A stretch of 36,154 bases of DNA from a virus: IMG/VR virus record IMGVR_UViG_3300001475_000001, positions 1 through 36,154 of that record; one strand, written 5' to 3'. This document shows positions 552 through 36,154 of the stretch, in pieces; position 1 is the stretch's first letter; each line of letters starts with the position of its first letter. A program made the position numbers and the translations under genes. The notes under the pieces are model-generated. The model worked only from the letters and a program-made list of their open reading frames with translations, was not told the DNA's origin and did no database searches.

Positions 552-846
552 CAATTGAATCCTCCGTAACGATTAAGGTGAATAATTCGCGCTCACAGGG
601 ATCGTAGGCACGATCCAAGAGAAAACGCCAAATCGCAGGAATCAGGCTGACGGCATCCATGTCTTTCCGGCTGACAACCTGCGTTGTCATGCATGACACG
701 AAGAACAGAGCAGCCGCTATATCCCAACGCCAGTTAAAAGCAATGAGGGCGCATACTGCTAGCGCCCCACAAAATACGATCCGATGAGTGTTGAGAATAA
801 CAAGCGGTTCATTGATCACCGCCGGAGTCTCCCTGATGACCTTCAT
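538..846 (-). CDS. VirB3/TrbD-like T4SS inner-membrane protein
   Basis: The 102-residue product has a short polar N-terminus, two closely spaced hydrophobic segments (about residues 23-38 and 42-55) and a soluble C-terminal half containing RAYDP. This matches the size and topology of VirB3/TrbD, a small inner-membrane protein that works with the VirB4 ATPase in pilus assembly. The gene sits two genes downstream of the pilin candidate, as virB3 follows virB2 in many operons. Its start overlaps the previous stop (ATGA). Similarity is by topology and synteny, so the exact assignment is moderate. A VirB4 gene would be expected further downstream, outside the window. Confidence 0.5.
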   Translation of the reverse strand: MKVIRETPAVINEPLVILNTHRIVFCGALAVCALIAFNWRWDIAAALFFVSCMTTQVVSRKDMDAVSLIPAIWRFLLDRAYDPCERELFTLIVTEDSIDEED

Positions 847-980
847 CTCGTCTCCAAGAACTGAATAACCTCATCAGGCCATCCGATACAGATGAGTACC
901 GCAGTCATAAATAAACTCAGCAGCGCCATTGTGTATATATCGCCAGCGTGTTCAGATATCCAAGCCGCTAGTCCTTTCAC
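843..980 (-). CDS. 45-residue single-pass membrane protein in T4SS operon
   Basis: A GTG start at 980 is preceded by a good GGGAGGTAG ribosome site, and the reading frame ends in an ATGA overlap with the VirB3-like gene. The product has an amphipathic N-terminus and one membrane helix (about residues 16-33, YTMALLSLFMTAVLICIG). The longer upstream reading of this frame runs antiparallel through the pilin gene and has no ribosome site, so the short form is preferred. No family recognised. Size and place next to the pilin suggest a small membrane partner of the secretion channel. Confidence 0.5.
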   Translation of the reverse strand: MKGLAAWISEHAGDIYTMALLSLFMTAVLICIGWPDEVIQFLETR

Positions 981-982
981 GT

Positions 983-1264
983 CTACCTCCCGAACGTTTG
1001 TAACCATCCCAGGATCTGATCGGGACGCAACGCGCCCCATCCAGCAATCAAGGCTGTAGCAAGCCCCACTCCCCCGCGTATCCAGGAGAAACTCATGTGC
1101 AGAAACTTGAACACGATGAGAGATCCAACAACGGGGAACGAGATGCGTATCGCCCACTGGTAAACGCCATTCGCTAATGCGTATCCCGGATCTCCACTGG
1201 AAGATACTTGAGCGAACGCCATCACGGACGCTGCCAAAAACAACACGATTAACTTTGATTTCAT
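983..1264 (-). CDS. VirB2/TrbC-like conjugative pilin precursor
   Basis: The 93-residue protein starts at 1264 after an AAGGAAGGAG ribosome site. It has a signal peptide (about residues 1-19, cut after AFAQ), a short hydrophilic region and two hydrophobic helices (about 42-56 and 66-77) separated by a short basic loop (SWIRGG). This is the standard build of VirB2/TrbC pilins, which are processed, inserted in the inner membrane and polymerised into the conjugative pilus. It overlaps the VirB9-like gene end by one base. Sequence identity with known pilins is usually low, so the call rests on topology, length and neighbours. Confidence 0.65.
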   Translation of the reverse strand: MKSKLIVLFLAASVMAFAQVSSSGDPGYALANGVYQWAIRISFPVVGSLIVFKFLHMSFSWIRGGVGLATALIAGWGALRPDQILGWLQTFGR

Positions 1265-2037
1265 TAGCTCTCCTTCCTTTTGAACTTCATGCTTTCTTTG
1301 CCAATTCGCACTTCTAATTGGTCCACTAACGGAAGCTGATACTTGCCCCCTTGGTAAAGAAGCTGTACCTTGTCCGTCTTCCCATCCCGAATGGCCCACA
1401 CTGCCGGTATCTCTTGACCCTCAATTGCCACGTAGGTAAACGTGTCGTCATGCGTGAGAATCGGCTTCATCTTGCCCTTGCCCTTGTGCTCATACATCTC
1501 GTAAGCAAAGAACTTCATCGAATTGACTTGCTTCATGACTTCCTCTGAGCACGAAACAGCCTTGACGGGTTGCGCTATCTTCTGTCTCAGCGCTTCATTC
1601 TCTGCTTGCAACCTGGTTAGATCGGACGCGGGAACGAACTGTGGGTGCCCCGTATCTATCCCGTCCTGTTCTACGATCACCTTGAGGTCGGCGTGCGCTC
1701 CTTTGATCTTCGATACTTCCGTGACTAGAAACGACATGTGGTTCCCGTCAGTGAGCGAGATGCTGACATTCGTTTTCTCGCCTCCATAACCGGGATAGTC
1801 ACGCGCTTTGATGTAGAGCACATTCCCGCTTGCGTTCACTTCAAAGAACTCCGTATTGCCGACTCTCGGGCTGTAGGGCTTGCCGGTCATCACCACTTCT
1901 CCTTTCGGCAAGTTGATTTCAGTAACCATGCCGACTTGTACGGAAATGGGCACGATGTCTTGTTCGTGTACCGTTACGGTCCTGGCCGTGACGCTTGGCT
2001 CCCCCGCAAGCACAGCCGCTAACGCGAATAGCATCAT
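1264..2037 (-). CDS. VirB9/TrbG-like T4SS outer-membrane complex protein
   Basis: This 257-residue protein has a short signal-like N-terminus and an N-terminal domain with DIVPISVQVGMVTEINLP, resembling the start of VirB9 (a beta strand reading xGxxTxIxLP). Its C-terminal domain carries THDDTFTYVAIEGQEIPAVWAI, then DGK and LEVRIG, which parallels the VirB9/CagX pattern of D..TYF....PAvf...G. VirB9 binds VirB7 and VirB10 in the outer-membrane core complex. Between the domains lies a heptad-like stretch (TRLQAENEALRQKI, about residues 140-155). The start ATG at 2037 overlaps the preceding stop by ATGA. VirB7 and VirB10 candidates are not visible here. Confidence 0.65.
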   Translation of the reverse strand: MMLFALAAVLAGEPSVTARTVTVHEQDIVPISVQVGMVTEINLPKGEVVMTGKPYSPRVGNTEFFEVNASGNVLYIKARDYPGYGGEKTNVSISLTDGNHMSFLVTEVSKIKGAHADLKVIVEQDGIDTGHPQFVPASDLTRLQAENEALRQKIAQPVKAVSCSEEVMKQVNSMKFFAYEMYEHKGKGKMKPILTHDDTFTYVAIEGQEIPAVWAIRDGKTDKVQLLYQGGKYQLPLVDQLEVRIGKESMKFKRKES

Positions 2038-2231
2038 TTGCTCTCCTCCCCATTTCCTTCACGTGGCGAAACTAACCACGTGATCAATGCGATGTTTACG
2101 ATTAAATAAGTAAACAAGGTTGTCAGCCCGTATTCGCCCAAGCTCAAATGTTGCGCCAGAGTCGAAATGATAGCGACAATCAAGCCCAAAACGTTAATCC
2201 ACAGAAGCGATAAGGCGTTAGCTCTGCTCAT
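2034..2231 (-). CDS. Two-helix membrane protein of T4SS operon
   Basis: The ATG at 2231 lies inside the end of the upstream gene, as elsewhere in this operon, and gives 65 residues. Two hydrophobic segments (about 7-26 and 35-54) are joined by a short loop, with an acidic tail (REGNGEESK). The stop overlaps the VirB9-like start. I do not recognise the family. It could be a VirB3- or VirB6-associated small subunit or a plasmid-specific membrane protein. Confidence 0.5.
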   Translation of the reverse strand: MSRANALSLLWINVLGLIVAIISTLAQHLSLGEYGLTTLFTYLIVNIALITWLVSPREGNGEESK

Positions 2232-2502
2232 TTGCTTTCCGCTTCGCCTTTCTGAGTACGTTAACACCAGCCTGTTTCAGAATCGCCTGATTGCTTTTCT
2301 CTACCGCTTTCGCGTCAGCATTCGCTTTCTTCTGCCGTTGGATGGCACGGTTATAAATCTCCTCTTGTGCTTTCGCAATGACCTCCTGCAAAGCCGGATC
2401 AGCTAGCGAAGTAATGTTGGCCAAGATCAGGTCGCGTATCTCGCTATATTCTTTTGCTAATTCTGTTGCTGATAACATCAATTCCTCAGTAATTTCTGTC
2501 AA
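2218..2502 (-). CDS. Helical, charged protein of unknown function in T4SS operon
   Basis: The TTG at 2502 is chosen because GGAG lies 8 bases upstream and the gene follows the RHH gene without a gap; the next ATG would remove eight residues. The 94-residue product is predicted almost entirely helical, with acidic N-terminal and basic Lys/Arg/Ala-rich C-terminal halves (NADAKAVEKSNQAILKQAG). No signal peptide or membrane helix is seen, so it is likely cytoplasmic. Lying directly after the RHH gene and before the membrane subunits, it may be a relaxosome accessory protein, but this is inference only. Confidence 0.5.
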   Translation of the reverse strand: MTEITEELMLSATELAKEYSEIRDLILANITSLADPALQEVIAKAQEEIYNRAIQRQKKANADAKAVEKSNQAILKQAGVNVLRKAKRKANEQS

Positions 2503-2847: not shown

Positions 2848-3867
2848 ATGCTGCATTGGAATCCGATGAGTGGACAGAACTACGTAGAGTACTTAGAAAA
2901 AGAGAAGGAAGAACCAGTTCACTGGCGTGGCAAATCCGCTGAACTTTTAGGGATAGAAGGCGTGGAAGTGACGCGGGAAAACTTTGCATTACTGGAGCGG
3001 GGAATCGAGCCAATTCACGGTGAAGTTTTACGCCCAAGAGAGCGTTACAACTTGACGCAGGATGGAAAGATTTATGCGCACTCCCGAGTGTTGTATGAAG
3101 TTGTGATTGCTCCACCAAAAAGCGTATCTATTTTGTCGCTAGTAGATGATCGTTTACCAACCGCTCATAAGGAAGCTTTGCGTGCCATTTCGCCTGACAT
3201 GGAATCGTTAGCTTTGGCGCGAGTCCGGAAAGGTGGCGTGAGCGAGAATCGGGAGACGGGAAATCTACTGTACGCGGACTGGCATCATAAGCTTTCTCGA
3301 ACCCTTGACCCTCAACAGCATACCCATCGAATCGTGATGAATATCACCTATGATTCAACGGAGGATCAATGGAAAGCACTGAAGGCCTGGGATCTACTGA
3401 AACAGCGGCACCCCATGACGGAACAATACCGTGAGTTTCTGGCGCACAAGGTTGAGAGTTTGGGCTATTCAGTTGAGGGAAAGCAAGATCGGCAGTTTGG
3501 ATGGGAGTTGTCTGGCGTTTCGCCTGAAGTAATCGCCAAGTATTCACAACGCAGTGAGGAGCGAGACGAGATACTGGCAGAGTTTGAGGAGTATCACGAA
3601 CGGCCCGCGACGTATAAGGAAAAGATTGTACTGATGCGGGGAAACCGGGATGAAAAGAAGTATCTTCCGGCAGAAGAGGCAAAGCAGAAGCAAATGGAAC
3701 GGCTAACCGTATCAGAACGCTCCAGTTTGATACGCCTAAAAGAAGAGTCCCAAGAAAAGCAGGTAAGCTATTCCTGGGACCTTAACGACCATATCACGGC
3801 TGAGTCTGCCACGCCTTATCAGGAGAGGTGGTCTTATGGTGAACGGCCTAAACAACGTGCGTATTAA
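2848..3867 (+). CDS. MobF (TrwC/TraI-type) conjugative relaxase, relaxase domain only
   Basis: The 339-residue protein starts after an AGGAG site. An N-terminal Tyr cluster (Y12, Y15 in NYVEY) corresponds to the catalytic tyrosines. APPKSVSIL (residues 88-96) matches the family's (S/A)PKSVS motif. HKLSRTLDPQQHTH (residues 147-160) holds the three metal-binding histidines H147, H158 and H160. Such enzymes nick oriT and stay bound to the 5' end during transfer. TrwC and TraI are much longer (roughly 970-1760 residues) because a RecD-like helicase follows; here the protein ends soon after the relaxase fold with a charged tail. The second Tyr pair seen in TrwC is not evident. The 3' end overlaps a convergent HNH gene by 20 bases, so truncation by insertion is possible. 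Confidence 0.85.
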   Translation: MLHWNPMSGQNYVEYLEKEKEEPVHWRGKSAELLGIEGVEVTRENFALLERGIEPIHGEVLRPRERYNLTQDGKIYAHSRVLYEVVIAPPKSVSILSLVDDRLPTAHKEALRAISPDMESLALARVRKGGVSENRETGNLLYADWHHKLSRTLDPQQHTHRIVMNITYDSTEDQWKALKAWDLLKQRHPMTEQYREFLAHKVESLGYSVEGKQDRQFGWELSGVSPEVIAKYSQRSEERDEILAEFEEYHERPATYKEKIVLMRGNRDEKKYLPAEEAKQKQMERLTVSERSSLIRLKEESQEKQVSYSWDLNDHITAESATPYQERWSYGERPKQRAY

Positions 3868-4366
3868 CGTATTCAGGGAGTTGATCTCTAGCCGCAATGG
3901 CAGACTCTACGGTGTCGAAGAATCCGATGTGTCTTTTCCTGCCATCAATTGTCAGTTGAAGTTGAAACTTTCCTAAATACGGCCATATTCCCCTGTGTCC
4001 GGTTTGGCTGTGACTAGCTGCCCCGCGTCGGTTCATTGAATTGGCGCGTGGTGTTACTACTCTCAATTTCCCGCGGCGGTTATCAAGAGAGTCGTGATAC
4101 TTATGGTCCACTTGCAAGTGTGCCGGGGCATCCATCAGAAAGCGATGCATGTAAATGGTTCTGTACTCGCCGTTTGCTTTCTCCCTGCAAACAACGTAGA
4201 AACGTCGCCCTCTTGGGCTCCATTGCGCTAGCCATTGGACGTTATGTTCCTGCAGCTTCGGAAGATCCGCGCTATCGACTAAGCAGTGAATGATATCCCC
4301 ATTGCGCCGTTTCAGTTCTATGATTGCGATCTGTCCGTCGTCCGAGACACTGAATTTATTCTTCAT
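3848..4366 (-). CDS. HNH/AP2-type endonuclease (copy 1)
   Basis: This 172-residue protein has an N-terminal beta-rich domain and a central HNH core, MHRFLM...LQVDHKYHDSLDNRR (about residues 75-99), followed by VVT and SMNRRG. A C-terminal AP2-like DNA-binding segment contains GHRGIW, KFQLQLTIDGRKRHIGFF and ESAIAARD. The family comprises free-standing homing-type nucleases common in phages and plasmids. Its start overlaps the stop of copy 2 by ATGA, so the two are co-translated. The C-terminus (EYVNTHVV) departs from the YPGYGG/YPAYDG endings of the other copies exactly where it overlaps the relaxase 3' end. Confidence 0.9.
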   Translation of the reverse strand: MKNKFSVSDDGQIAIIELKRRNGDIIHCLVDSADLPKLQEHNVQWLAQWSPRGRRFYVVCREKANGEYRTIYMHRFLMDAPAHLQVDHKYHDSLDNRRGKLRVVTPRANSMNRRGAASHSQTGHRGIWPYLGKFQLQLTIDGRKRHIGFFDTVESAIAARDQLPEYVNTHVV

Positions 4367-4875
4367 CCGCCATAACCCGGATATTGATTCCTTACCGCAA
4401 GAGCCTGTTCAATCGTTGCGAACAGCCCCATATATTTTCTCTTCCTGTTAATGCTGATCTGCAGAGTAAACTTGCCGCAACAGTGATGAGATATGCCGCG
4501 GTGGCCGGTCTTGCTGTTGCGGTTCGCGCCCGAACGGTTCATCTGATTCATGCTTGTCGTTACCACGCTCATATTCTCGCGTCGGTTATCAAGCGGATCG
4601 TGATACTTGTGATCGACCTCTAAACCGGGCGGAGGCTCCATAATGCAGCTATGTAAATAGAGCTTTCTCCATTTACCATCGACTTTCTTGTTGCCGCGAA
4701 CGTAAAATCTTTGAATTCCTTTGTTCCATAGCGCGTACCAGCGGATATTTAGCTCTTGCAATTTTGGAAGATCGGCAGTATCGACAAAGCAGTGCAGGAC
4801 CTCACCATTTCGTCTTTTAAGGTGTATGATTGCCGTTAGACCATCATCTGAGACCGTGAAGTGGTTCTTCATCAT
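4363..4875 (-). CDS. HNH/AP2-type endonuclease (copy 2)
   Basis: The 170-residue protein is a clear paralogue of copy 1, sharing FTVSDDG, LKRRNGE, ADLPKLQE and the core LEVDHKYHDPLDNRREN. The AP2-like C-terminal part reads GHRGISHH, KFTLQISINRKRKYMGLF, ends in RNQYPGYGG and is intact. The catalytic HNH histidines and the Asn of LDNRR are all present. It starts inside the stop of the upstream 69-residue gene (ATGATG). Two adjacent paralogues suggest local duplication or two invasions. Confidence 0.9.
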   Translation of the reverse strand: MMKNHFTVSDDGLTAIIHLKRRNGEVLHCFVDTADLPKLQELNIRWYALWNKGIQRFYVRGNKKVDGKWRKLYLHSCIMEPPPGLEVDHKYHDPLDNRRENMSVVTTSMNQMNRSGANRNSKTGHRGISHHCCGKFTLQISINRKRKYMGLFATIEQALAVRNQYPGYGG

Positions 4876-7523: not shown

Positions 7524-7660
7524 GAATTGAACCAGAACTGGAAGTATATTGCTCGCACGGTTGCGTATTTGTGTGGTTTGATTGCCACAACCTAGACAGC
7601 TCTTGCGTTTGGACAACGACCGTCAAGGACTGGTTGGAGGGAATCCATGAAGAAAGCTAA
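7520..7660 (+). CDS. 46-residue Cys/Trp-rich protein, unknown
   Basis: The ATG at 7520 overlaps the previous stop (ATGA), and the frame runs 46 residues (MRIEPELEVYCSHGCVFVWFDCHNL...) with four Cys and two His in the first half. The pattern C-x3-C-x6-C-x6-C could bind zinc. Its 3' end contains the ribosome site and start of the next gene. The gene is short, but overlaps on both sides fit the style of this cluster. Confidence 0.4.
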   Translation: MRIEPELEVYCSHGCVFVWFDCHNLDSSCVWTTTVKDWLEGIHEES

Positions 7661-8405
7661 AGCGCTTTTATCTTTGCTCGCACTCGCCGTCGTTGCTTCG
7701 GCGCAAACCGGATCGAAGAGCTTTATCAAAGAAGTGAACGGCGATTTGTGGTTGACTGCGAATGCCTATTACGATGGCGCGCATTGGCAGCGCGTTGATA
7801 CCAGCAAGGTCGCTTATGGCTTACAACTCCAAGGAACCAATAACATTCCGGGTGAAGTCGTTTCCGGCACAAACCTCTGGGTGGCTCAGCCCGGCCCGAA
7901 TCCCATTAACTCCACCTATGGCGCTGTTGGTGGTTGGTTGCTCGGCACCGTTGTTACAGGAGACCGACAACTCGTCATCGGTGGCGGCGGTATTGAGATC
8001 GACGGCTATGGCGCACCTCCCTACGGAAGAGTCGTGCAGAATCATCAGGGCGGCGTCACGAATACCGGCTTAGTGACGAATCTCTTTACCGATTACAGCG
8101 GCGTCGATAGCGCGTCTCAGTCGTCTTGGTTTGCTGGCATCGTGGGCGACAGCTTTAAGGTGCGACGCGCGCCCGCAGGCTCTACGACTCTTGCCGATCT
8201 GGTGAGCGTTGATCCCATCGGTCGGCTGCAAATGCCCGTCTCGTCTTTTGCCAGTCTGCCCGCGTGCAATCCCGCTACCGAAGGATCGATTAAACCCGTT
8301 GCTGATTCAACGGTTAACACTTGGGGTGCCACGATCAGCGGCAACGGGTCTAATCACGTATTAGCATACTGTAATGCGGTTCATTGGACCGTCATGGCAA
8401 AGTAG
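7647..8405 (+). CDS. Secreted tail-fibre-like protein
   Basis: This 252-residue protein starts after GGAGGGAATCC. Residues 1-19 (ending VASAQ) form a clear Sec signal peptide. The rest is beta-rich, Gly/Ser/Asn-rich and fibre-like. The C-terminal segment (SLPACNPATEGSIKPVADST, then NTWGATISGNGSNHVLAYC and WTV) resembles the terminal receptor-facing domains of phage tail fibres, which also occur in host surface proteins. It lies directly before the terminase genes, not with the other fibres at 23-28 kb. Whether it is a virion protein or an exported coat protein cannot be told. Confidence 0.55.
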   Translation: MKKAKALLSLLALAVVASAQTGSKSFIKEVNGDLWLTANAYYDGAHWQRVDTSKVAYGLQLQGTNNIPGEVVSGTNLWVAQPGPNPINSTYGAVGGWLLGTVVTGDRQLVIGGGGIEIDGYGAPPYGRVVQNHQGGVTNTGLVTNLFTDYSGVDSASQSSWFAGIVGDSFKVRRAPAGSTTLADLVSVDPIGRLQMPVSSFASLPACNPATEGSIKPVADSTVNTWGATISGNGSNHVLAYCNAVHWTVMAK

Positions 8406-21887: not shown

Positions 21888-23317
21888 TGGCGAAATATCG
21901 TGTCGAAACGGACCAGGGAACGTTTGAAGTAGAAACGGACGAATCCCCCGCGAAACCGGATGCTTTTCAACAGGCTGTGAATTACAAAACCGGCAATGCC
22001 CCGGCTGATTTTGCGCTGGGACTCGTGCAAGGAGCGGCGAAAAACGCGGCTGCTACCGGAGTCGGCATTGGCTCCGCTTTCCGCAAAGCAGCGGGCATGG
22101 CTCCTTTACCGGCAGACACGTTTCAAGCCGATACGGAGAAGCACGGCCTTGCCGAGAATATCGGCGGATTCATCGAAGGAGCGGCAGAGTTCGCGATACC
22201 GGGCAGTGCGGTAGCGAAAGCAACAAAAGGAGCCGGGGTAGCCGCTAGGATGCTAGCACAAGGGGCTACAGCGGGCGGGATCGGTGCAGCGCAGTCAGGT
22301 GGGCAACTAGCTCCTACCTTGACAAGCGCAGCACTGGGGGGTGCGGGGCCGTTGCTTGGTGCAGGGGCAAGGGGAATTAAGCAACTCGCCGGACAGCGCG
22401 CCCCAACCCTTGCTAATTATGCGGAATCGTTTGCCGCCACGAGCGGGAAACAGAAGCAGAAGATCAGCTCAGCGTTGGACCTCTTGAAACAGGACGGCAT
22501 TCAACCGGGCGCGAATATCCATGAAATGCAGGGCGCTCTCGAAGGCAAGCTGGCGCAACTGGGCAAGCAATACGAAGCGCTGAAGGCATCGGGAGCGGGG
22601 AGCACCCCGACAGACGCTCAAGGCGTTTTGCAAGGGCTGGAGGATTACGCGAAATCGCTCAAAACGGATGGTGTTCTGTTGAGTGGGAACAAGGCGAAAT
22701 ACTCGCTCGTGCGTGAGCAGATGCGCGATGTAAAGAAACTGGCAGCACAGAATAACGGACAACTCACTTTCGATCAGTTGAAGGAACTTCGCAACATCGT
22801 TAACGAGAAAACGGGCTTTGCCTCCGCCGATTGGGAAAAGGGATTATACGGCAAGCTCGGCAACATCTACCGCTCACAGATGGACCAAGCAGTCCCAGGA
22901 ACCAAGGAACTGAACCGAAGCTGGGCCAAGTACTCGGATCTTCATGAGGAGATCAGTAAGAATATCGCGCAGAACAAAGGGCAGGGAACGAGCGCGTTAG
23001 GCAAGATGTTCGAAGCTTCCGAGATGAAACACTCTGGAGCCGTCATGGGCGGAACGCTCGGAGCAGCTATCGGCGGGGCGCCGGGCGCGTTCGTCGGATC
23101 GATGGCTGGCCGCATGCTTCTCCCCAAAGCGGCAGGGGCGGCAGGACGGATGCTAGAGAGCGCGATGAATACAGGCACCTTTCAGAAGCTGTCTCCTGCT
23201 ACACAGCGCGTGGCGGCCATGGCAGCACAGATGGGCGATACCAAGGCACTCTTACGGCTATTAGGGACAGGGACTGTCCAGGAAAGCGCTCAGCGCATGA
23301 CAAGGAGCAATCAATGA
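21887..23317 (+). CDS. DNA-ejection/internal virion protein with glycine-zipper segments
   Basis: The 476-residue protein begins MAKYRVETDQGTFEVETDE, a small N-terminal beta domain seen at the start of many phage internal virion proteins. Hydrophobic Gly/Ala segments follow (FALGLVQGAAKNAAATGVGIG; AQGATAGGIGAAQSG; GTLGAAIGGAPGAFVGSMAG) that could insert in a membrane, separated by helical coiled parts. This matches the channel-forming ejection proteins. The end overlaps the fibre gene by ATGA. Confidence 0.65.
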   Translation: MAKYRVETDQGTFEVETDESPAKPDAFQQAVNYKTGNAPADFALGLVQGAAKNAAATGVGIGSAFRKAAGMAPLPADTFQADTEKHGLAENIGGFIEGAAEFAIPGSAVAKATKGAGVAARMLAQGATAGGIGAAQSGGQLAPTLTSAALGGAGPLLGAGARGIKQLAGQRAPTLANYAESFAATSGKQKQKISSALDLLKQDGIQPGANIHEMQGALEGKLAQLGKQYEALKASGAGSTPTDAQGVLQGLEDYAKSLKTDGVLLSGNKAKYSLVREQMRDVKKLAAQNNGQLTFDQLKELRNIVNEKTGFASADWEKGLYGKLGNIYRSQMDQAVPGTKELNRSWAKYSDLHEEISKNIAQNKGQGTSALGKMFEASEMKHSGAVMGGTLGAAIGGAPGAFVGSMAGRMLLPKAAGAAGRMLESAMNTGTFQKLSPATQRVAAMAAQMGDTKALLRLLGTGTVQESAQRMTRSNQ

Positions 23318-24918
23318 AAAGAATCTTTCTGTTTTTCCTCGCCAGTGGCGCGATCTGGGCACAATCTGCTGGAACCCCCATGTCGCTGATTTCCATCATC
23401 GACGACAACTTGCTCCCGAATGGTGGCAAAGTGGGCGGCGACTGCACGAACTACAATGTGGCGTATTTTAATGTTGTCCAAGCGCATAGTGTGGCTTGCA
23501 TCAACACGAATCCGTTAAACGTAACGAACGTTGGCAAATGGACCGTCACCAGCGGCGGCACGGGCGGAACGAATTATACAGCCGGAACCGGCCTGACCCT
23601 CACGGGAAACACGTTTGCGGTCAAATACGGAGCGGCTGCGGCGACTGCTACCGAAGGTAATGATGCGCGCATCGGCGCGGGCGGCGGGGCCACCTACACG
23701 GCGGGCACCGGCTTGACTCTCACGGCGAATGCCTTTTCCGTGAACTACGGGACGACGGCGACAACAGCCGCTGTCGGGAACGATTCCAGGATCGTCAATG
23801 CTCTCAATGCCTCTAGCTCGTTAAACGCGACGAACCTACTGAGTGGCACGGTGCCCGCTGGTCGTCTCCCCACACCGACCGTATCGGCGCTCGGAGGCGT
23901 CCAGTCTCTTGCCTGTGCTGCTTCGTCTCATGTGAACTCCATTGGAACGGATGGCCTACCCACCTGCACAGCCGATACGGGCGGTGCTGGAACGACCTAC
24001 ACGGCTGGCACTGGTTTAACGCTGACTGGTAACGCCTTTTCGGTCAATTACGGAACAACGGCGACGACAGCCGCTGTCGGCAACGACACGCGCATTGTGA
24101 ACGCCTTGAACTCATCGAGCTCCCTCAATGCTACGAACCTGCTAACCGGCACCATGCCAGCGGCACGCATGCCAGCACCGACAGCTTCGACTCTGGGGGG
24201 TGTGCAGTCGCTCGCGTGCGCTGCCTCGTCGCATCTGAACGCGATCTCGACGGCGGGCGTACCCACCTGTACGGCAGACGCGGCAGGCGGCGGAGGAGCG
24301 GCTACTGTCCCGATTGGAGGAAGCAGCGCGAATCGACCCGCGACGACTCCTGGTACCTCTTCGCTGTTCCTCCAGACTGATCGTAACGTAGGAGATCAGT
24401 TTAGCTATTACAACGGAACAGCTTGGTATTATCCGGGCGCTGTCGATGCCACCATGACACGCGATGCAGCAACCGGCACCATGGGGGTGAATCCCAATAG
24501 CGTGCCACGCCTCGGAGCTGTCAATAGCTTCACCGCCTCCAACAACATCACGTCTGGTGGCCCGATTCCGCTTACTCTGTCCAGTACCGCGTCTAAGACG
24601 ACCTTCTTTGTTACGAATACCAATTCCAACCCGGCAGGGGGGACGCATGATTGGGATATCTCTGTGACCGAGAACGGCGGCTTTATCATTTGGGACGATT
24701 CGACGAACACCTATATCTTCGTCCGCTCGCCAGACGGCCTACAGACGGGCGTTTCGGGCGGATTAACCATGAACTACGGCAACATGGCGAAACCAGCCTG
24801 TGCTGTCGGCTATCGAGGCATGATGTGGTTTGTCAATGGTGGCGCAGCCGCCGACAGTTACCAGGTTTGCATGTACAACGGTACGGCCTATACGTGGAGG
24901 ACCATTACCATCCCATGA
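23314..24918 (+). CDS. Repeat-containing tail-fibre-like protein with signal peptide
   Basis: The 534-residue protein has an N-terminal Sec-type leader (MKRIFLFFLASGAIWAQ). A fibre-like region follows with two near-identical 101-residue repeats (codons 127-227 and from 228), each starting TYTAGTGLTLT and containing NYGTTATTAAVGND and GGVQSLACAASSH; a 40-residue partial copy precedes them. The C-terminal part is Gly/Thr/Asn-rich beta. Thr/Gly/Asn-rich repeats with sharp turns are characteristic of trimeric phage fibres. A cleavable leader is unexpected for a virion protein, which normally assembles in the cytoplasm. Confidence 0.7.
   Translation: MKRIFLFFLASGAIWAQSAGTPMSLISIIDDNLLPNGGKVGGDCTNYNVAYFNVVQAHSVACINTNPLNVTNVGKWTVTSGGTGGTNYTAGTGLTLTGNTFAVKYGAAAATATEGNDARIGAGGGATYTAGTGLTLTANAFSVNYGTTATTAAVGNDSRIVNALNASSSLNATNLLSGTVPAGRLPTPTVSALGGVQSLACAASSHVNSIGTDGLPTCTADTGGAGTTYTAGTGLTLTGNAFSVNYGTTATTAAVGNDTRIVNALNSSSSLNATNLLTGTMPAARMPAPTASTLGGVQSLACAASSHLNAISTAGVPTCTADAAGGGGAATVPIGGSSANRPATTPGTSSLFLQTDRNVGDQFSYYNGTAWYYPGAVDATMTRDAATGTMGVNPNSVPRLGAVNSFTASNNITSGGPIPLTLSSTASKTTFFVTNTNSNPAGGTHDWDISVTENGGFIIWDDSTNTYIFVRSPDGLQTGVSGGLTMNYGNMAKPACAVGYRGMMWFVNGGAAADSYQVCMYNGTAYTWRTITIP
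23692..24294 (+). repeat. 303-bp tandem repeat in fibre gene (two copies)
   Basis: The codons for 101 residues are duplicated (23692-23994 and 23995-24294) with nearly identical protein and many silent DNA differences. Recombination between copies could change fibre length. A partial third copy begins at 23572. Confidence 0.75.
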
Positions 24919-26291
24919 AACAACTATTCCTTTTCTTCGGCTTAGCTTTGGCAGCGTCCGCCGCTGTGACGGGCGTCACCGCCGATAATATCAGCTATTC
25001 TTCGTGGCGACTAAGATTGACAGGGGGAGGGGCCTACGGTGCTGCCCGTTTCTATTTTTCCGTGGCTCCGCTCTCCTGTCTGACCGTGACAGCAGGCGTG
25101 AAGCTCGAAAGTATCCCGTATGAAAACGGGCTGAAGGCTCCGAATACCGCTTACGCCACTATGGACACTTCTGGGAAAGTTCCCGATACGCTCTATAACG
25201 TGTGCGTGCAGACGAATACAAGCGGCACCTGGACGTATGGCCCTATGATCCAGGTGAGGACATTGCCAGCACCCAGGATGGGTTATCGTATTCCGCCGCA
25301 TGCACTCAAGGTCGATACCAGCTACCCTGCCGACCTCACTGATTCAGCAGTGACCGTCACGGCTACGGTTACGTCTAACTGCTCTTCGTTTCTCACGGAA
25401 TTTAACGCGGCCATTGCTCGGCAAGCAACGAAGAATACCATCATCCTTTTACCGCTGACGACCTGTCAAGGAACCGTTACGCTCGATCAAACGCCCGTTG
25501 ATGTCAAAGTACTCGCGGGCGGAGATGTGCAGGGCGATGGCTCCTTATACGTATTCGCTCATGGCTGGAGTGATAATCAGGCCGTCATTGTAGCGCGATC
25601 GGGCGATTACTCAGGCGCTACTCCCTACGGGATTATTCGCATCCAAGGCGATAATCCACCAGGGTCTGAACGACCAGACGGTCGCCTGTACTATGCGAGA
25701 GTCAAAGACGCTAATACTGTGTTTCTGTGCGAGAAACCACCATCCCAGGGAGGAACCAATATTACCCTTTCCTCCGCAGGAACCGGCACTTACTATGTCA
25801 TGGCGTATCCACGGGCACTGAAGTGGATTATTATCCGCACGGTGACGCCTGATGACCAATTTGTTCCTCCGGGCGTCAGCCTAGGAGCCTTGGGCGGGAC
25901 GGCTTGGATTCCGAAGATGGCTAAGTTTACGAATCCTATTGCGAATCACTCCTATACCGGGCGTCCGATTATCGAGTTTATCGATGCGAACCAGGATGCA
26001 AAGCGACAATCGGTGCTCGCGAATATCCGTTTCATCGGCATTGTCTGGACAGTAGCCGATGACCCGGTTTCCTATACAACCGTTGATCCGCCGTCCTGGA
26101 ATTTCTTTCTATCACCACAGCCTACTCAGCAGAACATTATCATTGATCGCTGTATTTTCATGACGCCTTCCATTCAGCAGCGCGTTTATACCGCGTTCAA
26201 GTTTCAGGGTCTCAATAGCGCCGTTGTGCACAGTATCTTCGACAAAACTATCAACTTTTTCTTTCCGAAAAACGAGGGGGGTGTTCAGTGA
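24915..26291 (+). CDS. Beta-helix tailspike-like protein 1, secreted
   Basis: The ATG at 24915 overlaps the fibre stop (ATGA); the longer upstream frame reads antisense-like through the fibre gene and is rejected. The 458-residue product carries a signal peptide (MKQLFLFFGLALAASAAV). An N-terminal Fn3-like or Ig-like strand region follows. The rest is a right-handed beta-helix-type body with stacked strands (IEFIDANQDAKRQSVLANIRFIGIVW; QQNIIIDRCIFM; VVHSIFDKTI). It ends abruptly in what looks like the middle of the helix, whereas related host proteins run 700-900 residues (from memory), so it may be truncated or completed by the next protein. Confidence 0.65.
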   Translation: MKQLFLFFGLALAASAAVTGVTADNISYSSWRLRLTGGGAYGAARFYFSVAPLSCLTVTAGVKLESIPYENGLKAPNTAYATMDTSGKVPDTLYNVCVQTNTSGTWTYGPMIQVRTLPAPRMGYRIPPHALKVDTSYPADLTDSAVTVTATVTSNCSSFLTEFNAAIARQATKNTIILLPLTTCQGTVTLDQTPVDVKVLAGGDVQGDGSLYVFAHGWSDNQAVIVARSGDYSGATPYGIIRIQGDNPPGSERPDGRLYYARVKDANTVFLCEKPPSQGGTNITLSSAGTGTYYVMAYPRALKWIIIRTVTPDDQFVPPGVSLGALGGTAWIPKMAKFTNPIANHSYTGRPIIEFIDANQDAKRQSVLANIRFIGIVWTVADDPVSYTTVDPPSWNFFLSPQPTQQNIIIDRCIFMTPSIQQRVYTAFKFQGLNSAVVHSIFDKTINFFFPKNEGGVQ

Positions 26292-28132
26292 GAAAGGCCA
26301 TCCTAGGACTATTCGTGCTGCTCCAGACCGCACTCGCTGTGCCTCCTGGCCCGCAGACCTTTACGATTCTAGCGGGACGCTATACGGCGGGAGTCTGGAA
26401 AAGTGTTCTACCGCAAAACATCGTTGTGACGGTTTCAGGCCGTCAGACCGCAACGATTGATCGGCGCATCCTTATTACCTTTCCACTCACCAATACGGCG
26501 ATTCCTAAGATCTACTTGCCCGCTGGCAGTATCGGTGCCTGCTCGGGAGGAACCTGTAATTTTGTCACACAGGACATCACGAACGCGGAGATTGGATGCG
26601 ATATCTTTAGCGGCCAATGGCCTGTAGACGCGCAAGGGCGCATCGCCACGATCATGGTGGGCTGTGTCAATACAGACCCGGAAGGCTGGTTCTGGGGCAT
26701 AACAAGCGCACTGGCTGAGCAGTCGCGTGGAGCGGGCGCTCCGGGAGACGAGGAGGGTTGCCAGTGCATCCAAGGCCCGGATGGACCAGGGCCACTGACC
26801 TGGCGCGGGAATGATACGGCGATGGGCGGCAATCCGTTCCATATGGCTGATGAGGGCGGCCTCTTCGTGCATAAACACGATTACTGGATTTATCGCAACC
26901 ATGTGAATCCTAACTGGGCAGGCATGTTTCATCCGAACAACCCGGAAAGGGACGGCAACATTTACGGAAGTCGCCAACAACAGTTCGAGTGGAAAGGCGG
27001 CAATACCATCACTTTCGAGGGCAACTGGTTTGAGGGCGGGTATCACAGCAGAAGCGGATCATCGACGAGTACGATGATTCTGTTTCGCAACGTGAATGAG
27101 GATAACTCGAACCTACTCATTACCGATAACGTGTTTGAGCATGTCCATGGATTGTTTCTCGCGGGCGATCTCAATTACCCCGCTCTCATCTATCAGGGGA
27201 TAACCAGTCAAAACTTCCTAGCGATCAACAACGTGAGTTGGGACGTTAACGAGAAAGGGCCAGATACCGCGGGCGTCGGCGGCGGCGGGCCGTGGTCCAC
27301 CCCTGCCGGAGTGACGGGCGGGTATGCCGACGTGACGGCAAGCAATCGCGGGTACGGCTGGATGAATCAGGGGCCATCGATGCAAGAAGGACTGGCCTAT
27401 ATCCGCAACACTTTCCCAGACTTCCGAGGCGGCGTACCAGCCCTCAACTATACCTATGGCACGCCGAGTGGTGGACTCTATTACGGAGACAACTTTCTTC
27501 CGATGTCGAAAGACAACAATATGAGCTACTTTGGGATCAAGTCTGAGCGAGCGGTTGAGAATTGCGGTTGCTGTGGTGGCAACTATGGAGGGTTCGCCTA
27601 CCTTTCTTGTTATTATTCTGGCGGATACTCTCTCACCGGAAACGTGTGGTTGTCTCGCGATCAGACGAAAGCCGCGATTGATGCGGACGGTTGGGGCACT
27701 AACAACACGACCCCGGCCAATCCTGCCGATCTGACGGGGATTTGGCCGAAGTACACGGTGAAGGACTGGCATTATCATCTCGATCCAGAAATGTACCGCT
27801 TACCCCTCGGCTCTCCGTATATCGGCAAAGGGGCTGACATCACCAGGTTAAGATCCGCCCTCGGCATGGTCGATCAGCCGCAAGCGCTGTTTGATGCCTC
27901 GAACAATCTAGTGGTTACATGGCTCGCGCCAGACGCGCAAGTCTGCACGATTGACACGTCCTTAGCCACGGGAGACCTGATTAGTGGTTTCACGAGAAAC
28001 AAGGCGGACACAGGCGTAACGAGGGTACGGAAGGTGACGATCCCCTCCGCTGGCTTTACCGCGAACACCAATTACAAGGTGAGGATCAATTGCGAACGTG
28101 AAGCGCCCGTCTTAACCGCACGTAGCAACTAA
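26288..28132 (+). CDS. Beta-helix tailspike-like protein 2, secreted
   Basis: The 614-residue protein has its own signal peptide (MRKAILGLFVLLQTALA). A beta-helix body follows, with repeated N-x-F/N-x-I strands (HDYWIYRNHVNPNWAGMFHP; NTITFEGNWFEGGYHSRSG; LLITDNVFEHVHGLFL; NFLAINNVSWDVNE) and Cys-rich loops (CGCCGGN, CYYSGG). The C-terminal domain is Fn3-like (VTWLAPDAQVCTIDT, FTANTNYKVRINC). Pectate-lyase-like spikes of this fold bind or cut surface polysaccharide. It closes the rightward cluster; its 3' end overlaps the convergent PEP-CTERM gene by 47 bases. Confidence 0.75.
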   Translation: MRKAILGLFVLLQTALAVPPGPQTFTILAGRYTAGVWKSVLPQNIVVTVSGRQTATIDRRILITFPLTNTAIPKIYLPAGSIGACSGGTCNFVTQDITNAEIGCDIFSGQWPVDAQGRIATIMVGCVNTDPEGWFWGITSALAEQSRGAGAPGDEEGCQCIQGPDGPGPLTWRGNDTAMGGNPFHMADEGGLFVHKHDYWIYRNHVNPNWAGMFHPNNPERDGNIYGSRQQQFEWKGGNTITFEGNWFEGGYHSRSGSSTSTMILFRNVNEDNSNLLITDNVFEHVHGLFLAGDLNYPALIYQGITSQNFLAINNVSWDVNEKGPDTAGVGGGGPWSTPAGVTGGYADVTASNRGYGWMNQGPSMQEGLAYIRNTFPDFRGGVPALNYTYGTPSGGLYYGDNFLPMSKDNNMSYFGIKSERAVENCGCCGGNYGGFAYLSCYYSGGYSLTGNVWLSRDQTKAAIDADGWGTNNTTPANPADLTGIWPKYTVKDWHYHLDPEMYRLPLGSPYIGKGADITRLRSALGMVDQPQALFDASNNLVVTWLAPDAQVCTIDTSLATGDLISGFTRNKADTGVTRVRKVTIPSAGFTANTNYKVRINCEREAPVLTARSN

Positions 28133-28610
28133 CACCCATGCCGGCTAAGGCGAGATGCCATGTTTTCGGCTCTGGCGTAACGGTAGCGACATGGTCTGTC
28201 GGCTTGATCGTGAAGCGGTTATGCGCTTCGAATACGTCGGCATCGTGGCTGAGATCAGCGAGATTAAAGGAAGAGATCCCGGCTAGCCTGTTCTCCCGTT
28301 CTCCATTCTCGCGAGTCACAATGGCGGAAATGCCGACTTGCGGAAAGGGAAAGCTTGGCCCCGCGAAGAGCTGAATCTCAATTTGACAGGTCGCACCTCT
28401 CGGTAGATTAGCGCAGGGGCTGACGACGGTTTGTTCGTCCTTCAAGATCCACGTCGGTATCCCACGCCTCGGATCGGGCGGCTGAATATTCGGCAGATAG
28501 CCGTTGGTGACGAAGGTCAGCAAGTCGAAGGACCCATTGCTCAAGGTGTATTCCACCTGAGCGGCGGATAAGGAAGCGGCAGTAAAAGCGAGTGCTAGTA
28601 AGGTTTTCAT
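28086..28610 (-). CDS. PEP-CTERM surface protein (exosortase substrate), antisense moron
   Basis: The 174-residue protein has an N-terminal signal peptide (MKTLLALAFTAASLSAAQ), a beta-rich secreted domain with DADVFEAHNRFTIKP, and the tripartite sorting end: PEP motif TPEPKTW, hydrophobic helix LALAGMGVSCYV and a basic tail RLRRALHVRN. Such proteins are cleaved and anchored by exosortase, usually in exopolysaccharide-making Gram-negative bacteria. No exosortase gene is seen here, so the host would have to supply it. It is the only minus-strand gene inside the late region and sits antisense between the tailspike and the late terminator, like a lysogenic-conversion (moron) gene. Confidence 0.8.
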   Translation of the reverse strand: MKTLLALAFTAASLSAAQVEYTLSNGSFDLLTFVTNGYLPNIQPPDPRRGIPTWILKDEQTVVSPCANLPRGATCQIEIQLFAGPSFPFPQVGISAIVTRENGERENRLAGISSFNLADLSHDADVFEAHNRFTIKPTDHVATVTPEPKTWHLALAGMGVSCYVRLRRALHVRN

Positions 28611-28672
28611 TTGTTTATTTATTCTCTTTTCCTTGTTATGATGCGAGTTGGCTAGGTATCTAGCCTTCTCTT

Positions 28673-28879
28673 TCAGCCCGCGGGTCTGGTGTCCTGCGGG
28701 CTATTTTTTTCGACATACGCTTCCCACATCTTATACACGATTTCTGTATAAGTAGGACGGGCCAATTGCCCCTCTTGGACGCGTAATCTCTCCTGTTCCG
28801 CTTGCAGGAGAGCGAACAGCTCAGCCGAAATACTCAGCGTTCCCGTGCGGCGATTCGGGGCTCTTTTCATGATGTTCAT
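28673..28879 (-). CDS. Second ribbon-helix-helix-like protein
   Basis: GGAGGAAAAAGAAA directly precedes the ATG at 28879. The 68-residue product has a basic head (NIMKRAPNRRTG), a short strand (TLSIS), a helix (AELFALLQAEQERLRV) and a second helix (TYTEIVYKMWEAYV). This matches a CopG/Arc-type RHH layout. It is divergent from the replication/recombination operon and is a natural candidate for its regulator. Fold call by pattern only. Confidence 0.55.
   Translation of the reverse strand: MNIMKRAPNRRTGTLSISAELFALLQAEQERLRVQEGQLARPTYTEIVYKMWEAYVEKNSPQDTRPAG
28675..28710 (+). terminator. Rho-independent terminator of the rightward late cluster
   Basis: AGCCCGC (28675-28681) and GCGGGCT (28696-28702) form a strong GC stem with a 14-base loop, followed by ATTTTTTT (28703-28710). 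It stops plus-strand transcription arriving from the tailspike gene after it has crossed the PEP-CTERM gene antisense. It overlaps the 3' end of the convergent RHH-like gene. A smaller stem, GGCTAG/CTAGCC, lies just before it at 28650-28665. Confidence 0.85.
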
Positions 28880-28933: not shown

Positions 28934-28961
28934 TTGACCAATTCTGTAAAACTGCCATACT
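28934..28961 (+). promoter_or_regulatory. Possible promoter of the replication/recombination operon
   Basis: TTGACC (28934-28939) is a good -35; CATACT (28956-28961) lies 16 bases on and is an acceptable -10, the same -10 hexamer as in the T4SS promoter. It would start transcription about 65 bases before the 29034 gene. Confidence 0.4.
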
Positions 28962-29277: not shown

Positions 29278-30279
29278 ATGGAAAACTTAGACCAATTACT
29301 CATCAGGGAAGATCTCTCTTCCCTCGAACCAGAACAGAGGGCGGCATACTACACGGCGGTCTGTCAAAGCCTGGGACTCAACCCGCTCACCAGGCCATTC
29401 GGTTTCCTCGAACTCGATGGAAAGCTCGTTCTCTACACGAAGCGAGACTGCACGGATCAGCTAAGGAAGCTTCACTCCATCAGCATTAAGATCCTATCCC
29501 GCGAACTGGTCGATAGCGTTTACATCGTTACCGCGCAAGCAGCAACGCCAGAGGGCAGAACCGATGAGTCCATCGGGGCTGTACCTCTTGTGAAAGAGAA
29601 GGGCGATTGGAAGACATCGCAAGGCGGCAAGCGCTATTTCCAAGGAACAGGAGAGTTTAGTCCGCTTCCCCCCGATGCAAGAGCGAACGCTGTGATGAAA
29701 GCTGAGACGAAGAGCAAACGACGCGTCACGCTTTCCATCTGTGGATTAGGAATGCTCGACGAGAGCGAGATTGAAACGGTGCCGAATGCGCGGGTAAAAC
29801 AACCGGAGCAGATTCAGGAAGAACAAAAGCTGATCGATGTCGGGAATAACCCGATGAATAGCCGTGAAGCGCAAGCGTATGTCTTAGACCGAAAGCTCAA
29901 AGATCTGAATGCTGATCCAGAAGCACAAGTAACAAAAAGCTACGCGCGTGTAGAGCCTCCCAGCGTGCCAGCCTCTCTCGCCACACTGCACACGATCCCT
30001 GAGGAAGTTGTCGAGATCTGGAAGCGCATGACGTCGATTGATACGCGTTGCGAAGAGTTCCGCAAGCTCAAAAAAGAGCTACAGGAAGTGGCCGGAAAGG
30101 AAGAGGGCGAGATCTGCTATTACAACAAACTCGCCCTCTTCGACAAGGCCAAGCACGCGAACGAAATAGCCAAACGTCCGCAAGATTCGCGCAAGTGTGC
30201 AGCGGAACTCTGGACGGCCATCCAGAACTACAAGATAGCCGATAACAAAGACATTTCTGATGAGGATATACCCCGATGA
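29278..30279 (+). CDS. RecT/Bet-like single-strand annealing protein
   Basis: The 333-residue protein shows the pattern of the RecT/Bet superfamily: an N-terminal helix pair with YTAVCQSLGLNPLTRPFGF (24-43), a core strand GKLVLYTKRDCTDQLRKLH (48-66), and the signature NAVMKAETKSKRRVTLS(I)CGLGMLDESE (137-164). The last matches the Bet/RecT motif in which an aligned helix (KxExKxxRR) precedes GLG. Such proteins anneal complementary strands in phage recombination and usually act with an exonuclease, which is not seen here. A C-terminal domain of about 160 residues, helical and charged, follows. The start is one base after the previous stop. Confidence 0.75.
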   Translation: MENLDQLLIREDLSSLEPEQRAAYYTAVCQSLGLNPLTRPFGFLELDGKLVLYTKRDCTDQLRKLHSISIKILSRELVDSVYIVTAQAATPEGRTDESIGAVPLVKEKGDWKTSQGGKRYFQGTGEFSPLPPDARANAVMKAETKSKRRVTLSICGLGMLDESEIETVPNARVKQPEQIQEEQKLIDVGNNPMNSREAQAYVLDRKLKDLNADPEAQVTKSYARVEPPSVPASLATLHTIPEEVVEIWKRMTSIDTRCEEFRKLKKELQEVAGKEEGEICYYNKLALFDKAKHANEIAKRPQDSRKCAAELWTAIQNYKIADNKDISDEDIPR

Positions 30280-34095: not shown

Positions 34096-34632
34096 ATGAA
34101 GAATAGCTACGATGTCTCACCGGATGGTAAGACGGTAACGATCTGGATTCGGCGCAAGGGAGAGGATCTCGCTTGCCTCATCGATGCCTCCGACTTGCCC
34201 AAAGCTGCCAGCATCGATCACACCTGGCACGCACAATGGGACCCCGATATGTCCGATTACTACGTTGTCAGCTATTACCGCAAGGCTGGCGTGCGCCATA
34301 AATGGTACTTACATCGTCTGCTGATGGATGTGCCCGATCGCTTGCATGTCGGCCACTGGAATCATCTAACGTTAGATAACCGTCGAGCTAACCTCCGCAT
34401 TGCCACCAATAGCGAAAGCCAAATGAACCGACAGGGCGCGAATTGGCAGAATCCAACCGGCTGTCTTGGCATCCGTCTTTACCGCAAGGCGGCGAAACCT
34501 TACAAAGTCCGTATCACAATCGATGGCAAAGAAAGGCAAATCGGCTCATTCCTTACTCTCGAAGAGGCTATCACTGCTCGAAACAAATATCCTGCTTATG
34601 ATGGAACGTCGCAATTTCACGAAAATAGTTAA
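34096..34632 (+). CDS. HNH/AP2-type endonuclease (copy 3, altered active site)
   Basis: The 178-residue protein is a distant member of the same family as copies 1 and 2: NSYDVSPDG, DLPKAASIDHTWHAQWDP, LHRLLMDVPDRL, LDNRRANLRIAT, QMNRQG, then AP2-like RKAAKPYKVRITIDGKERQIGSF and ARNKYPAYDG. The HNH core reads VGHWNHLTLDNRR; the Asp preceding the catalytic His in the other copies (VDHKYHD) is Gly here, and Lys and Asp nearby are changed. The fold is kept, but cleavage may be reduced. It lies between the replication module and the coupling-protein gene. Confidence 0.85.
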   Translation: MKNSYDVSPDGKTVTIWIRRKGEDLACLIDASDLPKAASIDHTWHAQWDPDMSDYYVVSYYRKAGVRHKWYLHRLLMDVPDRLHVGHWNHLTLDNRRANLRIATNSESQMNRQGANWQNPTGCLGIRLYRKAAKPYKVRITIDGKERQIGSFLTLEEAITARNKYPAYDGTSQFHENS

Positions 34633-34870
34633 TGGGTATCGATGGGTGCTCAGCGAACGGCACGGCATATTTCGAGCGCATGCGCGAAAAATGATTCCTG
34701 ACGGCAAGGGCCACTCGTACTCTAGGCACGTAGGTATTGCTGTCTGTTTCCATAACGAACAGAAACGTGCGGAGTTTGTGAAGTCTACGGATATTGAAGC
34801 GTTCGTGATAAGAGTCAGTAATGGATTGGGCGATTTATTGACCAGTCAGCAGGTTTGGATATTCATGTAA
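34598..34870 (+). CDS. 90-residue protein of unknown function
   Basis: An ATGATG at 34598 overlaps the end of the HNH gene and opens a 90-residue frame to 34870. The product is basic and mixed (IVNGYRWVLSERHGIFRAH, HVGIAVCFHNEQKRAEFVK, FVIRVSNGLGDLLTSQQ), with no recognised motif. Its 3' end overlaps the convergent coupling-protein gene by eight bases. The first 12 codons are shared with the HNH gene in another frame, so the real start may lie later. Confidence 0.4.
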   Translation: MMERRNFTKIVNGYRWVLSERHGIFRAHARKMIPDGKGHSYSRHVGIAVCFHNEQKRAEFVKSTDIEAFVIRVSNGLGDLLTSQQVWIFM

Positions 34871-36154
34871 GGTGAACACTGTCCTCACTCGCCTTCACTT
34901 GCTTCGCCTTGTACGGCTTGCGTGTGGCTTCCTTTTCTTTCTTGGGTTTCTCGGGAGCTACCCACGCGGGCCACACCCTCGGCACAAATCCAGGCTGTAC
35001 CTGCTTTGACGGTCTCCATGGCACCTCGATCTTTGTTATCCCTAGACCGCGCATCTTCACGTAGCCGTGCCCATCTTCTAGCATCTGCATCTCGCCACCT
35101 AGGACAGCGCTTTCCATCGGTAACTCTGAACTGTAGCTATGATGCTGCTTGCTCCAGTCCTTCAACTGGTTCGCGTCCCTCGATTCCTTGATCCGCATCA
35201 ACTGAGAAGGCAAGCCTAAGAGATCGCCCGTGTACTTCGCTTCCTCTGGTTCATCCATCGCTAGCGTGATCTTCGTAGCAGGATTAGAAACAATCGTCTT
35301 GGTCCGCTCGTTTCCGTAGTGCAATCGAAGCTGAGAGAAGTTCTGGAATGCTGAGATGATCGGATTGCCAGAGCTACGGTTAATCGTTAACGCCTTCTCG
35401 TACGTCGGTATCTCGCCATACACCCCGATCTCATCGAAAATACAGCATCCTGGACCGGGATACTGCTGCATTCCTGCCAACAGCATGTCGATCATCAGCG
35501 CTTGCAAGCCCTGTTGCGCCGGGAAGTCGCTAGGACTGCTCACAAAGAAGATGTTGCCCTTCCTTTCCCTCCCTGCCTTGCACCATTCGCGGATACAGAA
35601 CGGTTTGCCCTCCTCTTGCGGTAAGAGACTTAGTGGAGCTACCGCGTTACTGAGATTGCCCATGAATCCATAGGGGCCTTCTCCTTCGCCTTCTAGTAGA
35701 CCCTCCTGCCCTGAACCATACAAAGCATCCTGTAGCTTGGCTTTGTCCTTCGCCAGCGCTAGGATCTCACGCACGGGCAAATGGAGGCATCCGAGCATGA
35801 AGGCCAGCATCTCCCTGGCTCCATCGAGAAAGAAGCGGATACTGTTCTCATACTCTTTGACCATCGCGTGTGCAATCGTTTTCGCTTCGAGCTTGCTCGT
35901 AAATTCTTCGTTTAGCATCCATCGAACACACCTTGCGTCGGCAAAGTTGATAAGATAATCTACATTAGGCTGGTAATACTCTGAAGCGTAGGACTTGCCT
36001 CCTTTGAGATCAGTGAAGATACAGGGCCATCCTCTCCGGATGGCCTGATCTGCAAATCCAAGCAATATGCTGGATTTCCTGGTACCCGTAGCGCCCACGA
36101 CTAGCACATTGTGGGCCTCCCGGTCTCTCGGGACAAAGAGTTTCAACCTCCAGT
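34863..36154 (-). CDS. VirD4/TraD-like conjugative coupling ATPase, 5' end cut by window edge
   Basis: The frame stays open to the window end, so the N-terminal membrane anchor is missing; a TTG at 36146 has no properly spaced ribosome site and is unlikely to be the start. Counting from that codon, the P-loop region reads VVGATGTRKSS (16-26), Walker B is CCIFDEIG (234-241), and NRSSGNPIISAFQNFSQLRLHYG (256-278) is the conserved coupling-protein sensor block. TNATK-like SNPATKITLAMD and the end LLGLPSQ also fit. These ATPases carry the relaxase-DNA complex to the T4SS. The P-loop Gly before Lys is Arg here, an odd change. The basic tail (PKKEKEATRKPYKAKQVK) is typical. Confidence 0.85.
   Translation of the reverse strand, partial: WRLKLFVPRDREAHNVLVVGATGTRKSSILLGFADQAIRRGWPCIFTDLKGGKSYASEYYQPNVDYLINFADARCVRWMLNEEFTSKLEAKTIAHAMVKEYENSIRFFLDGAREMLAFMLGCLHLPVREILALAKDKAKLQDALYGSGQEGLLEGEGEGPYGFMGNLSNAVAPLSLLPQEEGKPFCIREWCKAGRERKGNIFFVSSPSDFPAQQGLQALMIDMLLAGMQQYPGPGCCIFDEIGVYGEIPTYEKALTINRSSGNPIISAFQNFSQLRLHYGNERTKTIVSNPATKITLAMDEPEEAKYTGDLLGLPSQLMRIKESRDANQLKDWSKQHHSYSSELPMESAVLGGEMQMLEDGHGYVKMRGLGITKIEVPWRPSKQVQPGFVPRVWPAWVAPEKPKKEKEATRKPYKAKQVKASEDSVHLT

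Follow-up and report, generated by a model that had tools for sequence, protein, structure and literature searches.

Opposite the end of its late genes, a viral contig of P22 type carries a gene whose product is, by its sequence, exported and ends in a PEP-CTERM sorting signal that has all its parts but is weak. Similar phage-borne PEP-CTERM proteins recur elsewhere, and this one belongs to their class. The window, by which we mean the whole 36,154-nucleotide stretch analysed, encodes a P22-type portal (P22_portal, 334.9 bits) and coat protein (P22_CoatProtein, 126.1 bits), and scaffold and terminase genes were also found on it. Our preferred reading, a tentative one, is that the PEP-CTERM gene is genuine and serves a P22-like phage or phage-plasmid as an accessory gene, whose product would be exported, sorted by an exosortase and alter the cell surface, limiting the entry of phages or plasmids.

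The PEP-CTERM reading frame and its two signals

The reading frame, recognized from the list of open reading frames (ORFs) and by PF07589, occupies positions 28086-28610 on the minus strand, starts with ATG and encodes 174 residues. Its N-terminus, MKTLLALAFTAASLSA followed by AQVE, is signal-peptide-like in a simple rule-based test (not SignalP), residues 1-16 (28563-28610, minus strand) forming the predicted Sec signal peptide. The C-terminus, TPEPKTWHLALAGMGVSCYVRLRRALHVRN, matches the PEP-CTERM family PF07589, which has a curated cut-off of 20.7 bits, with 22.9 bits (E = 5.6e-6) in a search of the whole record, over the cut-off, and with 20.0 bits in hmmscan, slightly under it. The sorting signal spans residues 145-168 (28107-28178, minus strand); we asked for a match ending within about 10 residues of the C-terminus, and this one ends at residue 168 of 174. 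All three parts of a PEP-CTERM tail are present in the correct order, 6 residues from the C-terminus: the near-invariant Pro-Glu-Pro, here TPEP at residues 145-148; the hydrophobic helix of about 14 residues expected after it, here LALAGMGVSCYVRL with a mean KD of 1.46; and a basic cluster, with four Lys or Arg within the last 10 residues. The KD value is the lowest among seven phage examples (1.77-2.25 in the others). The PEP-CTERM signal of this ORF is complete, yet the weakest that we encountered, and because it is the weakest of the phage set and borderline in hmmscan, the protein may be poorly processed, or decaying.

A custom hidden Markov model (HMM) was built from the tails of eleven PEP-CTERM-bearing loci, with the window left out; three spurious C-terminal PEP pattern matches were included, which weaken the profile and do not help it. 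With this profile the ORF ranks first in the window, at 15.1 bits compared with 3.4 bits for the next, and none of 300 shuffled windows reached its score (best, 11.9). Random 700-bp stretches contain an ATG ORF of at least 174 residues in 0.4% of cases (P about 0.004), and the codon-position GC content is 0.55/0.47/0.62, like that of adjoining genes. That the frame is a chance antisense ORF and not a gene, as its antisense location and lack of homologs might suggest, is hardly credible in view of its length, a tail not reproduced by shuffling, a signal peptide exactly at the start, a PEP-CTERM signal exactly at the end, and the absence of any PF07589 match from 93 of 97 other phage contigs. 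The frame is a gene, and its sorting signal has every part but is weak.

No homologs of the protein body were found in phage records (one chance match, E 0.6), in viral contigs or 84,980 species genomes, or among PDB sequences (a single chance match, E 0.8). The protein has no Pfam match besides PEP-CTERM and no PHROG match, does not fall in the P22 Gtr or SieA families, and yielded no usable structure in single-sequence AlphaFold (mean pLDDT 38). The missing homologs, the weak tail and a poor ribosome-binding site would all fit a host gene that was captured once, has fallen out of use and survives as a pseudogene-like remnant. We consider this very unlikely, as the frame runs unbroken between its two signals, at the N-terminus and the C-terminus, and its codon-position GC is like that of its neighbours.

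The contig encodes no exosortase. Together with the weak, borderline tail, this would suit a protein that stays in the inner membrane after removal of the signal peptide, its C-terminal helix inserted, its periplasmic domain facing outward and its PEP motif unused, and that works as SieA-type exclusion proteins do, during entry or lysis; P22 has such an inner-membrane exclusion protein, SieA, in the neighbouring slot (PMC10883804). Such a role seems quite unlikely to us, given the three ordered PEP-CTERM parts so near the C-terminus and the textbook PEP-CTERM tails seen in other phages.

Layout and transcription signals of the locus

The PEP-CTERM gene converges with the gene for the last fibre/spike-like protein (26288-28132, plus strand; ORF list), which has 614 residues, a signal-peptide-like start by the rule-based test and no homolog found; the two ORFs overlap by 47 bases (28086-28132). 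Beyond the PEP-CTERM start, hairpin and fold analysis place an intrinsic terminator of the late transcript at 28675-28702 (plus strand), with a 10-bp stem containing eight G-C pairs, a run of seven T extending to about 28710, and a fold z-score of -6.1. The earlier note on this DNA had described a secreted protein with a full PEP-CTERM signal, encoded on the opposite strand of a mobile element or phage, between the last spike gene and a strong late terminator and overlapping the former by 47 bases; the layout and both ends typical of an exosortase substrate are borne out here, and the P22-type portal and coat agree with the proposed origin.

The terminator looks real, and no other strong plus-strand terminator was found between the spike stop codon and 28675-28702. 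Late RNA that reads through to this point, antisense to the PEP-CTERM ORF, is therefore plausible, as is silencing of the gene by such RNA. The hairpin lacks a T run when read on the minus strand, and a leftward transcript from the ORF to its right could therefore extend into the PEP-CTERM gene. This 68-residue ORF (28673-28879, minus strand) has a strong ribosome-binding site, and its predicted structure contains two confident helices; a ribbon-helix-helix class is only suggested by the model, and no Pfam, PHROG or fold match was found. The PEP-CTERM ORF follows 62 bases after this ORF with its good ribosome-binding site; the two are probably transcribed together, the PEP-CTERM gene perhaps standing second in a pair.

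No convincing promoter was found directly upstream of the PEP-CTERM gene. Sigma-54 sites have been reported for many PEP-CTERM genes; in the window their count is not above chance, and none lies upstream of this one. A perfect inverted repeat, GGCTAG-GTAT-CTAGCC (28650-28665), lies 40 nt upstream of the PEP-CTERM start and could be an operator or leader hairpin; it occurs as a single copy, with no further copies within the window. A search for RNA families gave no match. To the right of the 68-residue ORF, a rightward early module begins at 29034, with a weak sigma-70-like promoter (9/12) at 28934-28961 (plus strand), of a kind not above chance in number. The first long gene of this module (29278-30279, plus strand) encodes a phage protein of recombination type, relatives of which occur in 63 viral contigs.

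The element and its probable host

Besides its phage genes, the contig carries conjugation genes for a MobF relaxase, VirB9/CagX and a TraD-type coupling protein. The element is incomplete, because ORFs run off both contig ends: TraD is cut at the right end and another exported-protein ORF at the left. The conjugation region comprises 1-2500 (minus strand), 2848-3867 (plus strand) and 34863-36152 (minus strand), with MobF relaxase, VirB9 and truncated TraD, and small ORFs within it resemble other parts of a type IV secretion system (T4SS). The T4SS block apparently continues past both ends, pointing to a circular conjugative phage-plasmid that assembly has cut open. Three paralogous ORFs of HNH/AP2-like homing-endonuclease type are also present (3848-4366 and 4363-4875, minus strand; 34096-34632, plus strand), with relatives in viral locus L029.

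VirB9 matches Granulicella plasmids only, TraD has its best matches on Granulicella and Acidisarcina plasmids, and the direction of the genes from VirB9 to TraD equals that in those plasmids when the two contig ends are joined. The tail motif of the PEP-CTERM protein, TPEPKTW, resembles TPEPSTW of Tunturi_5, a phage of Acidobacteriota. On the basis of these plasmid matches and this likeness, the host is probably an acidobacterium from soil. In the literature on exosortases we found nothing on Acidobacteriota. Neither an integrase nor a repressor was recognized in the window, and it is the conjugation genes that lead us to assume a carrier state.

PEP-CTERM genes in other phages

A set of 97 further viral contigs was assembled by kinship in RecT, terminase or coat, with no attention to the PEP-CTERM motif; in four of them (G046, G050, G085 and G091) PF07589 scored over the cut-off. 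A targeted scan with a canonical tail gave five more: G051, G052 and G053, close kin of G046, and G054 and G055. None of these contigs encodes an exosortase. In G046, two paralogous PEP-CTERM genes surround a methyltransferase and adjoin terminase and portal; the gene of G050 lies near a nuclease and an integrase, that of G091 beside RecT among replication genes, and that of G054 converges on the last of the late genes. Host contamination was rejected for G046, G050, G054, G055 and G091 by the phage genes on the flanks of their PEP-CTERM genes; the G085 match falls within the first 200 bases of its contig, with the flank checked on one side only. The loci of the G046 family include L160 3644-4180 and 6653-7195, on either side of a DNA methyltransferase, and also L162, and in G053 frameshifts, from assembly error or decay, break both PEP-CTERM reading frames.

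G055, of a separate lineage, repeats the layout of the window: its PEP-CTERM gene is a lone leftward gene, with signal-peptide-bearing spikes on one side and the early module on the other. It has a good ribosome-binding site and a near-consensus leftward promoter (11/12), which overlaps a divergent rightward promoter. Between this gene and the early module, L185 9304-9370 contains face-to-face near-consensus promoters with a TTGACA-TTTGTCAA palindrome, and looks like a switch region. This arrangement favours leftward expression while the late genes are off.

The cultured jumbo phage Tunturi_5 (PP885688) has two PEP-CTERM genes detected by HMM, gp97 and gp179, both annotated as hypothetical, and these loci (L204 4879-5517 and L203 4108-4704) lie among replication genes. 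A BLAST search of isolate phages with two canonical tails gave no match; as the HMM found two Tunturi_5 genes where BLAST found none, BLAST is blind to such tails. Lytic cycles have been shown for the Tunturi isolates, including Tunturi_5, and their genomes contain putative integrases or recombinases (PMC11924767). With two PEP-CTERM genes among the replication genes of a lytic isolate, lysogeny cannot be assumed as a general rule, and phage PEP-CTERM genes need not be linked to it.

Between lineages the bodies of the phage proteins are unrelated, except for the G046 pair. Across three phages the G046 gene has a dN/dS of about 0.2-0.45, a rough value from few differences, and the family appears to be under purifying selection. 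PEP-CTERM proteins evolve fast, mostly lack homologs and are linked to exopolysaccharide (PMC1569441), and mutually unrelated phage-borne bodies are what repeated pick-up predicts. The window gene might accordingly encode an exported accessory protein taken from the host PEP-CTERM repertoire for some other host-directed job, such as exopolysaccharide binding, aggregation or biofilm formation, that helps the infected host. We are rather doubtful of this account: recurrence in compact genomes and purifying selection on the G046 family demand a benefit to the phage, and the presence of such genes in a phage with a lytic isolate is hard to square with host benefit alone.

Signal-peptide-like starts on fibre/spike-like proteins

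The spike gene at 26288 is one of four for fibre/spike-like proteins in the window with signal-peptide-like starts in the rule-based test; the labels rest on position and sequence character, with no homolog found. The others, all on the plus strand, encode a small fibre-like protein (7647-8405; MKKAKALLSLLALAVVASA), a repetitive tail-fibre-like protein with an internal repeat (23314-24918; MKRIFLFFLASGAIWA) and a further fibre/spike-like protein (24915-26291; MKQLFLFFGLALAASA). Within the repetitive gene, 23692-24294 is a 300-nt direct repeat, 71% identical, with a spacing of 303. For comparison, such a start was found in 4 of 400 ORFs of at least 300 residues from 144 other viral loci, at most one of them fibre-like. 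Sec signal-peptide-like N-termini on fibre/spike-like genes are rare in other phages. They occur on both G055 spikes (L185 2547-4523 and 4496-6391), on one G002 fibre, and on five genes of the fibre/spike block of Tunturi_1, a cultured acidobacterial podophage (L202 10371-23028); in Tunturi_3 and Tunturi_4, no structural gene within the first 50 kb was found to have such a start.

A wider proposal, which we think unlikely as a whole, is that these phages form a recurring, undescribed class in exosortase-bearing bacteria, combining PEP-CTERM proteins of their own with the host exosortase so that the infected cell is recoated. A subset, with the window and G055, would also export fibre/spike proteins of the late block through Sec, two exported products then remodelling the surface.

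Comparison with known systems

In the accepted model, a PEP-CTERM protein crosses the inner membrane, loses its signal peptide, is held by its C-terminal helix and is released by exosortase to the surface or exopolysaccharide (PMC1569441). The window protein resembles substrates of this sorting by EpsH or XrtA in its signal peptide, homolog-free body, PEP motif, helix and basic end (PF07589; PMC1569441), but its gene lies on a phage without exosortase and its helix is weaker than usual. Moreover, the usual PEP-CTERM gene stands behind a large intergenic region, whereas this one adjoins an opposite-strand phage gene.

In P22 (NC_002371), the tailspike gene is flanked by sieA-orf59a-mnt, just in front of it, and by gtrC/B/A, which follow it directly and lie on the opposite strand. 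Like the gtrABC O-antigen conversion cassette, the window gene is directly downstream of a spike gene, on the opposite strand and convergent with it, and a surface-changing role, proposed for the window gene, would be shared. There is no sequence relation, and gtr products are membrane and glycosyl-transfer enzymes, unlike an exported, tagged protein; the window gene thus appears to occupy the gtr slot by analogy of place, not of sequence. The sieA-orf59a-mnt unit is likewise short, beside the spike and on the opposite strand, with a small regulator-like gene upstream of one for an envelope protein, although SieA lacks a signal sequence and contains three membrane helices (PMC10883804), and the regulator class of the 68-residue ORF is a suggestion. 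The P22-like slot is no rule, as the G046 gene lies near terminase and those of G091 and Tunturi_5 among replication genes.

The Tunturi_5 proteins (host Tunturiibacter) share a hydrophobic export-type start and a PEP-CTERM tail with the window protein, TPEPSTW being found in gp97; they differ in belonging to a jumbo phage with PEP-CTERM genes in a co-directional replication region, and relatedness of the bodies is not established. TIGR03118 proteins, for which bacterium-to-virus transfers were reported in Yellowstone viruses as a count alone, also have a putative exosortase-interaction C-terminus but form a differently named family (PMC11003980).

Proposed role

From sequence we read the gene with its two signals, where it lies and on which strand, the terminator, the recurrence in phages and the fact that the contig encodes no exosortase; from these we infer, for the window gene, host, processing, surface location, timing, antisense effect and exclusion function. 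The protein would be made from the leftward unit 28879-28086, at an early stage or while the element is in its carrier state, and late rightward transcription, ending only at 28702, would pass antisense through the PEP-CTERM gene. Sec would export the protein, with cleavage of the signal peptide, and the C-terminal helix would anchor it in the inner membrane with the PEP motif at the periplasmic face. A host exosortase would then cut at PEP and hand the protein to the outer surface or exopolysaccharide, and the altered surface would most likely lower the entry of related phages or of a second copy of the conjugative element.

The likeliest gain to the phage appears to be a changed surface that excludes competitors, with aggregation or host benefit as the main rival. 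The gene and this exclusion reading are supported by a tail beyond chance, the signal peptide, the P22-type head genes, the gtr-like slot and the recurrence in phages. The earlier note's observation is confirmed and its interpretation, in which the protein may block superinfection or adjust pilus contact, partly supported, the surface-modifying idea gaining from the P22 gtr-like position and from the recurrence.

Surface conversion by phages is known mainly through sugar-altering enzymes, small lipoproteins and inner-membrane blockers. In the literature searched we found no description of phages using the exosortase route, except for the TIGR03118 count in one virome study (PMC11003980). Phages may exploit the surface-sorting machinery of their hosts, other phages, including a cultured one, having similar genes. 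With Tunturi_5 and its host in culture, the function of phage PEP-CTERM proteins is directly testable, and such a phage system would also open a way into what PEP-CTERM proteins do in general, a matter still poorly understood.
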